Notes under the pieces: model-generated
What the model was told of the DNA's origin: nothing
Seen by the model: only the letters and a program-made list of their open reading frames with translations
Databases searched by the model: none
Program-made: the position numbers and the translations under genes
Part shown: positions 7,619 to 27,982 of the stretch, piece after piece
How positions within the stretch are numbered: position 1 is the first letter of the stretch
Layout of the letters: every line of letters starts with the position of its first letter
NCBI GenBank assembly: GCA_030602615.1
Contig: JAUVZM010000015.1
Location: 1 to 44,517 of the forward strand
Length of the DNA: 44,517 nucleotides
From: a bacterium
GTDB taxonomy: Bacteria; Armatimonadota; Zipacnadia; Zipacnadales; Zipacnadaceae
Reading direction: 5' to 3'

Positions 7619-8574
7619 TGCATCCAGTTCTGGTTGAAACCGGTCCGTGGCCGTGGTGGGCCTACCCGATCATCGTCCTCATCCTGGCACTGGTCGCAGG
7701 CCTGGTGCAGTGGCTGGAAAGCCGCAGAGCAGACTCTCAGCCCCTTACAGCAACCAACTGGACACTCTTGGCCCTGTTCGTGCTGGCCGGCGCGGCCCTT
7801 GTGATCTTTGCTGTGAACAGACTGGCCCCAATCTATGTTCACTCATACGGGGTTATGCTCTTGATCGGCCTGGCCGCAGGCACCTGGTGGCTCAACAGGA
7901 CTGGCCGTGCCCACGGTTTCATCCTGGAAGATTGGATTGACTTTGCCCTGGTCATCCTGCTAAGTGGTGTGGTCGGCGCCCGGCTGCTCTACGTGCTCCT
8001 GCACTTGTCCGAGTATGGCTCCGCACCGGTGACTATCCTATACGTATGGGAAGGCGGCCTGACGTACCACGGCGGCGTGGCCGGTGCCATCATCGCTGGC
8101 TACGTATTTGCCGGCGCCCGCAAAATATCGTTCCCGCTAATAGCTGACCTGAGCGCGCCTGCGGTAGCCCTGGGATACGCATTTGCCCGAATTGGCTGTT
8201 TTCTCAACGGCTGCTGCTACGGGCACGAAAGCCACTTGCCCTGGGCTATCAACTTCCCTTCCGGAACCGAGGTCGGCGGCCTGCCGCGTCATCCCACCCA
8301 GCTCTACGCCTCCGTCGCCAGCTTCATAATCTTTCTCATACTGGCCCGGCTGCAACCACGCATCAAAGTCCGGGGGAATCTATTCCTGGGCTATCTTTTG
8401 CTGTATTCAATCTACCGGTTCATAGTTGAGTTCTTTCGGCGAGGCGCCACCGCCAATGTATTCGGTCCACTCGCACCACTGACTGAAGCCCAAACCGCGA
8501 GCATTGTAGTCGGGCTGGGAGCTTTGATCTGGATACTCGTGCGCAGCCGCAGGATAGAACCAGAAGGGGAGTAG
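7618..8574 (+). CDS. lgt: Prolipoprotein diacylglyceryl transferase with N-terminal extension
   Basis: Transfers diacylglycerol from phosphatidylglycerol to the lipobox cysteine of prolipoproteins. 318 aa from GTG 7618, which overlaps the lspA stop by one base. Core motifs: YHGG (150-153), RIGCFLNGCCYG (191-202, Arg191 matching the essential Arg143 of E. coli) and a C-terminal YRFIVEFFR segment. The core begins near residue 70 (PIYVHSYG). The first ~65 residues form two additional hydrophobic segments absent from a typical Lgt. A later start would remove the coupling with lspA, so I keep the long form. ddl follows after 4 bp. Confidence 0.96.
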   Translation: MHPVLVETGPWPWWAYPIIVLILALVAGLVQWLESRRADSQPLTATNWTLLALFVLAGAALVIFAVNRLAPIYVHSYGVMLLIGLAAGTWWLNRTGRAHGFILEDWIDFALVILLSGVVGARLLYVLLHLSEYGSAPVTILYVWEGGLTYHGGVAGAIIAGYVFAGARKISFPLIADLSAPAVALGYAFARIGCFLNGCCYGHESHLPWAINFPSGTEVGGLPRHPTQLYASVASFIIFLILARLQPRIKVRGNLFLGYLLLYSIYRFIVEFFRRGATANVFGPLAPLTEAQTASIVVGLGALIWILVRSRRIEPEGE

Positions 8575-26114: not shown

Positions 26115-26648
26115 ATGCAAACGCTTGAACTGCTGGTCAGCCTGAAGATCCCCGATGTTACCGCTCTGACCGCCGCCTCGGCCATTCGCCGGCGTCTGGG
26201 CTATGACGAGGTGCTCAAGGAGCTGCGGCGTAGCGATTACTACTCGCTCGACCTGAATGCCACGGACCCGCTGGCTGCCAACGGGCTGGCCCAGGAGCTG
26301 GCCGAGAAGACCAACCTTTTCGTCAACCCCAACAAGCACAGCTACGAGGTCCGTTCTCCGCAAGACCGAGGCGGCGGACCTACCCCGCAGGAGGGCCTGT
26401 GGCGAGTGGAAGTGCTGGTCACCGATGCTGAGGGAGCGGAGGCCGACGATATTCAGCAGGCGCTGACCCAGCGACTGGGCTACAGTGAGCAGGTCACGTC
26501 TGTCCGCCGCGGTATTCTGTGGACGCTGCTACTAACCGCCGACAGTGCTGAAGAAGCCCGAGAGATTGCCGAGCAGATAACAGTAACCACCGCCCGCGAC
26601 CAGGGCGTACTGGTCAACCCGCATTTTCAGGCGTGGGAGATAATATAG
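26115..26648 (+). CDS. purS: PurS, tandem two-domain form
   Basis: 177 aa, about twice the usual ~80-85. The first half (3-~80) contains KIPDVTALTAASAIRRRLGY and ends LFVNPNKHSYEV; the second half (~96-177) contains LVTDAEGAEADDIQQALTQR and ends LVNPHFQAWEII. Both match the PurS pattern of a short helix ending near GY and a terminal NP motif, so this looks like a fused duplication. PurS dimerises to bridge PurQ and PurL; the fusion would build that dimer in one chain. RBS GGGAGG precedes ATG 26115. The last 41 bases are duplicated at 27942-27982. Confidence 0.85.
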   Translation: MQTLELLVSLKIPDVTALTAASAIRRRLGYDEVLKELRRSDYYSLDLNATDPLAANGLAQELAEKTNLFVNPNKHSYEVRSPQDRGGGPTPQEGLWRVEVLVTDAEGAEADDIQQALTQRLGYSEQVTSVRRGILWTLLLTADSAEEAREIAEQITVTTARDQGVLVNPHFQAWEII

Positions 26649-26650
26649 GC
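26610..26650 (+). repeat. Direct repeat, copy 1 (functional 3' end of purS)
   Basis: CTGGTCAACCCGCATTTTCA and the 21 bases after it, covering the last 12 codons, stop and two bases of purS. It matches 27942-27982 at 37 of 41 positions. The differences fall at third codon positions and are silent. It would be attL in an integration model. Confidence 0.85.
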
Positions 26651-26654
26651 AAAG

Positions 26655-26674
26655 GTCGGTCAGACAGGACCGAC
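26655..26674 (+). terminator. Hairpin after purS (possible weak terminator)
   Basis: GTCGGTC (26655-26661) and GACCGAC (26668-26674) around AGACAG, seven bases after the purS stop. No T run follows, so termination is uncertain; it may instead mark the element boundary. Confidence 0.4.
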
Positions 26675-27206
26675 TGGATGAGCTGTTCCGCAGCGGAGCG
26701 CTGGTGCCAGCTCCATGAACAGCGTAACTCAGGGCTAAGTGGCGCAGTGATATGTGATCAACATCACAGCTCTGGCAGATGCTTGGCTCAGGTTCGATCT
26801 TCCGTGACCGGTTAGCTCATCGATTTCCCAAAACCCTAAGCTCACGATGTACTCTCCCTCACATTCTGGAGATCAAGTAGTCTGTAATCCGACAGGCTGC
26901 TAGTCGGTGCCAGTTGATTTTCTCTGCTCCCGGCGGGTAGACAGCGGACCCTAACCTCGGCTCAACCTGGGCGACAGCCCGCTGTCCCCGCCGGCAAATG
27001 TTTGATGATCCCTGCTGCAGTTCTCTGCACCACGGGGAAGGTTTATCATCCTGGATGACGAATACAATCGGGGCAGGATGGGCGATATTGGGCTTCTGTC
27101 AAACCGTCTCTGTATCGTCTGTCCTGCTTCGCTTTTATTGTCTGGGCTCTCTTCACCACTACCGCTGTGGCGGCAAGCACAGCAATCCATACTAGTTGCA
27201 GCCAGA
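26675..27206. other. Intergenic part of the candidate element, no supported gene
   Basis: About 530 bp with stop codons in every frame and no ORF with a ribosome site. It holds one strong hairpin (26930-26994). A short GGTTCGATC at ~26792 resembles a tRNA T-loop, but the flanking stem does not pair. Confidence 0.6.
26930..26994 (-). ncRNA. Bulged 65-nt hairpin (third of the series)
   Basis: CCGGCGGG (26930-26937) and GACAGCGG (26940-26947), separated by a TA bulge, pair with CCGCTGTC (26979-26986) and CCCGCCGG (26987-26994): 16 bp with a 31-nt loop. The plan (outer helix, bulge, inner helix, ~30-nt loop) matches the hairpins at 27540-27611 and 27803-27877. Read on the minus strand, all three have GGCTGT at or near the 5' side of the loop. 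No promoter fits directly upstream, so it may lie in the 3' part of the orphan gene's transcript. Confidence 0.4.
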
Positions 27207-27458
27207 TCACTGTAACTTCTCCAGCTCTGCTATCAGCCGGGCGAGTGCCTCTTTACCCGGCTCCACCTGTTTACTGCTGACTATACGAAAGCCCCGCTCC
27301 TGCCACTCCCGCTTCGCCAGGGCTTCGTGGTCGGTGTAGTGAATCAGCAGCTCGCCCTCCACCTTGATCAGACCCCCGGCCAAAGACTTGACATCACTCA
27401 CCACTCTCACAAGTTCGGGACTATGAACTGCTGCTTCCATGGTCAGTTTGACGAGCAT
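27207..27458 (-). CDS. Orphan small protein (83 aa) in the candidate element
   Basis: ATG at 27458 with GAGGTGAT just upstream; a longer frame to 27521 would run into the hairpin RNA. The sequence begins MLVKLTMEAAVHSPELVRVV, then SDVKSLAGGLIKVEGELL, and ends in a charged helix, AEGLIAELEKLQ-like (ALARLIAELEKLQ). Predicted pattern: beta, alpha, beta-beta, alpha, a compact alpha/beta fold without Cys, signal peptide or membrane segment. It resembles small nucleic-acid-binding or antitoxin-sized proteins in size only. I do not recognise it. It is downstream of the hairpin and promoter at 27520-27647, which may be its leader. Confidence 0.55.
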   Translation of the reverse strand: MLVKLTMEAAVHSPELVRVVSDVKSLAGGLIKVEGELLIHYTDHEALAKREWQERGFRIVSSKQVEPGKEALARLIAELEKLQ

Positions 27459-27519
27459 GGCATCACCTCGCTTTGCCTGTCCTGCTCCCTGTGAAAGGTC
27501 GCGACGTCTGGGGGCACAC

Positions 27520-27611
27520 AAAAAGGCCGGCCCCCGATGGTACCCTGAGGATTGGAACTCCGCAGCACCGAGAACCGGCCACAGCCGGCACGGAGTTCCA
27601 TCTTAGGGTAC
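27520..27611 (-). ncRNA. Structured RNA 2: closed hairpin with U-rich end
   Basis: The expected start of the promoter at 27619-27647 falls on the first base of GTACCCT (27611-27605, minus). That pairs with AGGGTAC (27546-27540). An inner helix, TGGAACTCCG with CGGAGTTCCA, follows an internal loop. The apex holds CCGGC-TGTG-GCCGG. Downstream is GGGGGCCGGCCTTTTTG; its CCGGCC could alternatively pair with GGCCGG of the apex, giving a switch-like or terminator arrangement. It could be a short sRNA or the leader of the 83-aa gene. Confidence 0.5.
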
Positions 27612-27618
27612 GCAGCAG

Positions 27619-27647
27619 ATTGTAATATACGACTGGAAGAAAGTCAA
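27619..27647 (-). promoter_or_regulatory. Strong predicted promoter P2 for structured RNA 2
   Basis: Minus strand: TTGACT (27647-27642), 17-nt spacer, TACAAT (27624-27619). Five of six matches in each hexamer at optimal spacing. Confidence 0.7.
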
Positions 27648-27778
27648 GCTCACCGCCCGGCGAGAGAGTGAGCGCCTGGGCACGATCAAGCGCTTGGGGA
27701 CCCAGACTACGCGCGGGGGGACAGGCGAGGGTGTACTGGTCCAGCTCGAGTGCCCGGCCATCCATACTTTGGAGCTCA

Positions 27779-27877
27779 TAAGGAAGGCCGGCTCCGTAGC
27801 CTGCACCTGGTGACCGAAGCCACATCAGAGGCCAACGAAGCCGACCTATACAACAGCCGCTTCGGTCACTCAGGTGC
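27779..27877 (-). ncRNA. Structured RNA 1: closed hairpin
   Basis: The expected start of the promoter at 27884-27912 falls on the first base of GCACCTG (27877, minus). The stem is GCACCTG-A-GTGACCGAAGC paired with GCTTCGGTCAC-CAGGTGC (27820-27803): 18 bp with one bulged A and a 38-nt loop. Downstream GGAGCCGGCCTTCCTT resembles the end of RNA 2. The primary sequence of the stem is unlike RNA 2 but the plan is the same, which suggests a structural family. Confidence 0.5.
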
Positions 27878-27883
27878 ACGATC

Positions 27884-27912
27884 ATTATAAGATGGGAATG
27901 GGAAAAAGTCAA
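27884..27912 (-). promoter_or_regulatory. Strong predicted promoter P1 for structured RNA 1
   Basis: Minus strand: TTGACT (27912-27907), 17-nt spacer, TATAAT (27889-27884, perfect -10). Probably the best promoter match in the window. Confidence 0.75.
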
Positions 27913-27941
27913 CCTTTAGTGGATAGTTTCGAAGGGGTCTT

Positions 27942-27982
27942 CTGGTCAACCCCCACTTCCAGGCGTGGGAGATAATCTAGGC
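27942..27982 (+). repeat. Direct repeat, copy 2 (orphan purS 3' end)
   Basis: It encodes the same terminal residues LVNPHFQAWEII and stop as purS, with four substitutions in 41 bases, silent in the coding part. Upstream in frame only a Gly-Leu pair still resembles purS (GVL), then a stop codon appears, so it is a disconnected tail, not a gene. It would be attR in an integration model. secA ends 40 bp further on the other strand. Confidence 0.85.

Follow-up and report, generated by a model that had tools for sequence, protein, structure and literature searches.

Two promoter–hairpin units in an insert between secA and purS

We analysed a 44,517-nt stretch of DNA from a member of the Armatimonadota (contig JAUVZM010000015.1 of assembly GCA_030602615.1), referred to here as the window. 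In the secA–purS interval, an insert of ~1.33 kb contains two promoter–hairpin units, P1 and P2, together with an 83-amino-acid and a 54-amino-acid ORF. The insert lies between two 41-bp copies of the purS 3′ end that are 90% identical, and no recombinase was seen within it. From secA towards purS, the features are:

27942–27982: secA-side copy (host-like) of the purS 3′-end direct repeat
27884–27912, minus strand: P1 promoter, TTGACT-N17-TATAAT (sequence and unit scan)
27803–27877, minus strand: P1 long hairpin, 75 nt, expected +1 at 27877 (sequence and fold)
27784–27797, minus strand: P1 3′ arm, ACGGAGCCGGCCTT, a 13-bp complement of the P1 apical loop
27619–27647, minus strand: P2 promoter, TTGACT-N17-TACAAT (sequence and unit scan)
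27540–27611, minus strand: P2 long hairpin, 72 nt, expected +1 at or within 1 nt of 27611
27523–27536, minus strand: P2 3′ arm, CGGGGGCCGGCCTT, an 11–12-bp complement of the P2 apical loop
27510–27535, minus strand: P2 alternative 3′ hairpin, GGGGGC...GCCCCC (sequence)
27207–27458, minus strand: 83-amino-acid ORF led by P2, ATG at 27458 with GAGGTG upstream
27046–27210, minus strand: 54-amino-acid ORF with one hydrophobic segment (sequence and hydropathy)
26610–26650: the other direct repeat, at the 3′ end of purS as it now stands

A genus mate (G003) has a single copy of the repeat between secA and purS, corresponding to the empty site, and four other genomes (G005, G006, G002 and G004) have different sequence in this interval. 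Across genus mates, the interval (window positions 26610–27982; L101–L106) is an insertion hotspot, and the inserts in three genomes (G000, which contains the window, G006 and G002) have duplicated purS 3′ ends. The G002 cassette at this site (L103, G002:C325; L005, minus strand from 1110), which adjoins a duplicated secA 3′ end, has the −35 side of the P1 promoter in common with the window. Its leader is unrelated to P1; it has a closing stem near +1, formed by CAGTGATA with TTTATTGCTG, contains a plain canonical terminator-like hairpin and leads an NYN-domain gene.

The original prediction had placed twin promoter-plus-hairpin units on the minus strand at 27520–27912, and sequence, folding and a unit scan showed both to be present as described. 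For P1, the boxes are TTGACT at 27912–27907 and TATAAT at 27889–27884; for P2, they are TTGACT at 27647–27642 and TACAAT at 27624–27619, with a 17-nt spacer in each case. The scan, which required a promoter with at most one mismatch per box and a closed hairpin of 55–95 nt at +1 below −30 kcal/mol, returned exactly these two units from the window; 60 Markov-1 random windows gave no hit. The predicted placement of the start on the first hairpin base also held, on or within 1 nt, for P1, P2 and all eight copies of the family described below. Fold z-scores against dinucleotide shuffles were −7.7 for the P1 stem and −4.8 for the P2 stem, and none of 200 shuffles was as stable as either.

The hairpin plan that had been proposed was borne out, with one correction. 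The long stems are there, that of P1 consisting of 7 bp, one bulged A and 11 bp. The supposedly large loop is occupied by a small apical hairpin (with AGGUCGG in P1 and GCCGGC/GCCGGU in P2) and by the complement of the downstream GCCGGCC arm. Directly 3′ of the arm is a short U-rich stretch in P1 and a U-run in P2. The alternative 3′ hairpin of P2, whose loop takes in part of the arm and the U-run, keeps all six of its pairs in five of five P2-type copies (R1 structure, below).

P1 and P2 belong to one structured RNA family

Candidatus Zipacnadia is a class of Armatimonadota. Using covariance models and blastn, we found eight copies in four genomes of one Zipacnadia family, six of them beyond P1 and P2: two on C51 and one on C24 of G004, one each on C7 and C2 of G006, and one on C13 of G010. 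All come from metagenome-assembled genomes (MAGs), and the alignments of these eight copies were fitted by hand. P2-like copies were found by blastn of relatives in G004 (two), G006 and G010. Model R1, built from five hand-aligned P2-type sequences with N as gap placeholder, matches P2 at 27507–27619; model R2, built from P1 and the G006:C2 copy, matches P1 at 27779–27885, and the G004:C24 copy was found with it. Because R2 also picks up all five P2-type copies (E values 2.8e-7 to 0.019 over 187 kb), we regard P1 and P2 as two branches of one structured RNA family. The covariance-model search of related genomes, a check named in advance, thus recovered homologues and joined the two types. Of the weak R1 matches in family genomes, only that in G006:C2 appeared genuine by eye, and the weaker R2 matches looked unrelated.

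No credible copy was found outside the Zipacnadia family among 291 genomes of the phylum, searched with stricter filters than the family; three weak matches there (L113, L114 and L115; E values 0.0016–0.007 per genome) were taken as chance. There were no copies in phage records and no viral contigs with the full pattern. Among the viral contigs listed for a loose P2 pattern, none of those searched was matched by R1, and the sole viral contig with the P1 pattern gave only an E value of 0.013 over 20 nt. In the window, no Rfam release 15 family, including T-box, SRP, 6S, RNase P and tmRNA, reached its gathering threshold, the best sub-threshold matches were at chance level, and ARAGORN found no tRNA or tmRNA; the statement that no known RNA class fits therefore stands. 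We also found no matching system in the literature.

The stems change in sequence while pairing is kept, as had been predicted. When only the P2-type copies are considered, both sides have changed in 9 of 32 pairs and 98.1% of cells are paired, versus 34–53% when the strands are slid. Across all eight copies, 16 of 32 pairs are doubly changed and 98.8% of cells are paired, a figure inflated in part by the structure-based alignment of the two types, so that the P2-type figure is the cleaner one. Sequence varies most in the outer stem, which is nevertheless strongly paired, and the apical core is conserved. Promoter, stem at +1, apical core, arm and U-run follow in the same order in all eight copies. 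With homologues in relatives, compensatory stem changes and no Rfam match, we judge this to be a real and previously undescribed structured RNA family, in agreement with the original prediction.

Copies precede unrelated genes in mobile DNA

In seven of the eight copies, a Shine-Dalgarno-like sequence, a start codon and a same-strand ORF follow closely downstream; P1 is the exception, with no convincing gene of its own. The led ORFs are mutually unrelated. They encode ankyrin repeats, a tRNA_anti-like domain and a PEP-CTERM protein, and the others have no Pfam match; no toxin family was found among the downstream proteins with Pfam. The 83-amino-acid protein led by P2 matches nothing in Pfam and lacks homologues in the 14 other family genomes searched, and its stop codon overlaps the GTG start of the 54-amino-acid ORF. 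A hydrophobic N-terminal segment occurs in five of the seven led genes versus 24 of 91 background ORFs (hydropathy, post hoc comparison), and a sixth led gene has such a segment further in. These segments hint at surface or membrane functions. The PEP-CTERM gene led by the RNA lies inside a prophage-like region (L111:9917–10744, minus strand) and is possibly a lysogenic-conversion gene.

The copies are surrounded by mobile DNA. The G004:C24 copy adjoins a terminase, an integrase and an HTH-IrrE gene, the G010 copy adjoins an integrase and a prim-pol gene, and serine recombinases lie beside the copies in G006:C7, G004:C51a and G006:C2. The G004:C51b copy is within a 2.5-kb segment bracketed by 53-bp direct repeats (89% identity; L107:5761–5813 and 8250–8302). 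The same repeat sequence occurs, inverted, just upstream of the RNA promoter in G006:C7 and G004:C51a. We also noted a large serine recombinase (L110:9444–11519, plus strand) whose C-terminal part matches LuxR-type GerE and sigma-70 region 4 HTH models, an unusual fusion.

In all-against-all blastn comparisons, homology between most copies did not extend beyond about −51 to +120. The G004:C24 and G006:C2 copies are 95% identical over these positions with no flank homology detected, and the pair G004:C51a/G006:C7 is the exception, with more sequence in common. Since homology is confined to this interval, the exchanged unit appears to be promoter plus leader, ~170 bp.

The apical loop is complementary to the downstream arm

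In all eight copies, the apical loop (GGCCGGYUCUC in P2-type and AGGYCGGCUUCG in P1-type copies) is complementary over 11–13 bp to the arm before the U-run. Over the 11 pairs shared by the eight copies, 88 of 88 cells form standard pairs. Many of these are G–U and none is A–C, which fits pairing in RNA of the transcribed strand; the stems contain G–U pairs as well as A–C mismatches and do not distinguish RNA from DNA. The covariation score of the loop–arm pairing was equalled or exceeded by 3 of 500 shuffles. Only two of its pairs are doubly changed, a number attained by 150 of 500 shuffles, and because GCCGGC is its own complement, some of this pairing would arise in any case.

The loop–arm helix crosses the long stem. 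A linker of 3–5 nt bars its formation in cis with the stem of ~20 bp intact, an arrangement that we therefore rejected on geometric grounds; the helix would have to belong to an alternative fold or form in trans. We estimated the hairpin state at −40 to −47 kcal/mol and the loop–arm state at about −23 to −27 kcal/mol, the latter with the inner stem kept and +9 assumed for the pseudoknot. Because the hairpin is far more stable by these estimates, it is the expected default, and an off state would depend on a trigger or on kinetic effects. The complementarity leaves room for two competing folds.

A candidate portable leader for cargo genes

The family, its stems, the loop–arm complementarity, the gene context and the insertion were computed directly. 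Seven of the eight copies lie between a promoter and a co-directional gene. We estimate a probability of roughly 0.6 that the family works as a mobile cis-acting 5′ expression leader for unrelated cargo genes with two exclusive folds, the exclusivity following from the inability of the 11–13-bp loop–arm helix to coexist in cis with the full stem. Of the parts of this reading, a role as cis-acting leader is probable. That the leader acts as a switch is a tentative suggestion, and regulation by alternative pairing is plausible; the fullest version, a portable two-state RNA switch that recombination has carried into phages, recombinase-borne elements and small inserts, is doubtful.

We infer the following sequence of events. 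The ~170-bp module, a sigma-70-type promoter with a structured 5′ leader in front of unrelated mobile-element cargo, would start transcription at the 5′-most nucleotide of the long hairpin. Burial of the 5′ end in the stem would then be expected to shield the mRNA from 5′-end-dependent decay. The 5′ hairpin fold would allow read-through and leave the gene on, and the loop–arm helix with the U-run would terminate transcription and turn it off. A trigger, perhaps a host or phage signal serving as common input, would shift the fold.

A leader could also work with no switch, as a promoter and a 5′-terminal stem that stabilises the cargo mRNA in the manner of E. coli ompA; the loop and arm would then be kept for something else, for instance to bind a protein. 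We consider this possible, if on the unlikely side; being a restricted version of the leader idea, it shares part of its probability with the favoured explanation. It agrees with an outer stem that is highly variable in sequence, strongly paired and begins at +1 in all copies, and with the thermodynamic dominance of the hairpin, but would leave the conserved loop–arm complementarity and the U-run unexplained.

The original prediction treated the units as independent, implying stand-alone trans-acting small RNAs of ~95 nt that end at the U-run, with the ORFs as bystanders. The structural family in that reading holds, but the RNAs most probably act as 5′ leaders of cargo genes that mobile elements carry, which leaves independent units unlikely. 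Each has its own promoter, most have a U-run, P1 lacks a clear gene and the loop–arm helix before the U-run could serve as a terminator. However, a Shine-Dalgarno-like sequence and a co-directional ORF stand close behind seven of the eight copies, no simple local hairpin precedes the U-run, and the loop–arm helix would need to invade a stable stem.

Mobile contexts with recombinases nearby, and repeats that flank two segments, might instead suggest a role at the DNA level, in which the palindromes fold in single-stranded DNA and serve mobile elements as sites of recombination or replication. We consider this improbable, as the repeats of the insert lie outside the hairpins, the promoter is at a fixed distance in all copies, and the loop–arm helix has G–U and no A–C pairs. 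An integron attC site has conserved basal boxes and a variable apical part, with recombination at the site; we rejected this candidate on the variable outer stem, the conserved apical core and the position of the insert repeats. A type III toxin–antitoxin-like system, in which an RNA antitoxin and a terminator precede a toxin gene, has the same order of RNA, terminator-like site and gene (PMC4147584), but is very improbable given aligned RNAs with no tandem repeats and unrelated downstream proteins with no ToxN-, CptN-, TenpN- or AbiQ-like Pfam match.

Comparison with known systems

The proposed leader resembles transcription-attenuation leaders and riboswitches in having a structured 5′ leader in which two pairings, predicted to be mutually exclusive, and a U-run precede the gene. 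Unlike these, one Zipacnadia leader stands before unrelated mobile-element genes, and it has no known aptamer, Rfam match or ligand. The 5′-terminal stem-loop of the E. coli ompA 5′ UTR reportedly stabilises its mRNA, and such stabilisers likewise bury the 5′ end in a stem at +1; the Zipacnadia family differs in its covariation, its conserved apical core and arm, and its spread over unrelated genes.

In LoaP-type antitermination, genes acquired horizontally are preceded by a conserved leader hairpin, and the leader contains a terminator-like site (PMC12691694). The conserved hairpin and terminator-like site are common to LoaP/RfaH-type leaders (dfn hairpin, ops/JUMPstart) and the present family, whereas the Zipacnadia genomes have one NusG where found, the cargo operons are short, and the hairpin is long and starts from +1. 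We found one NusG each in G004, G006 and G010 and none in G000, an incomplete MAG; with no second NusG found, antitermination by a NusG paralogue was rejected. The ToxIN order of promoter, RNA, terminator-like site and gene (PMC4147584) is also seen here, but the Zipacnadia family has neither repeats nor a common toxin.

Phage morons and the gene cassettes of integrons are likewise accessory genes within mobile DNA that bring expression signals of their own, and mobile-element cargo genes in general usually appear to do so individually. The Zipacnadia module differs in that a shared structured RNA, not an attC site, is found on unrelated genes and elements: unrelated cargo genes of a prophage, of elements carrying recombinases and of small segments between repeats are all preceded by one structured leader in a ~170-bp exchanged module. 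If the switch is real, a regulatory RNA would be spreading with mobile DNA and would place unrelated genes under one control input.
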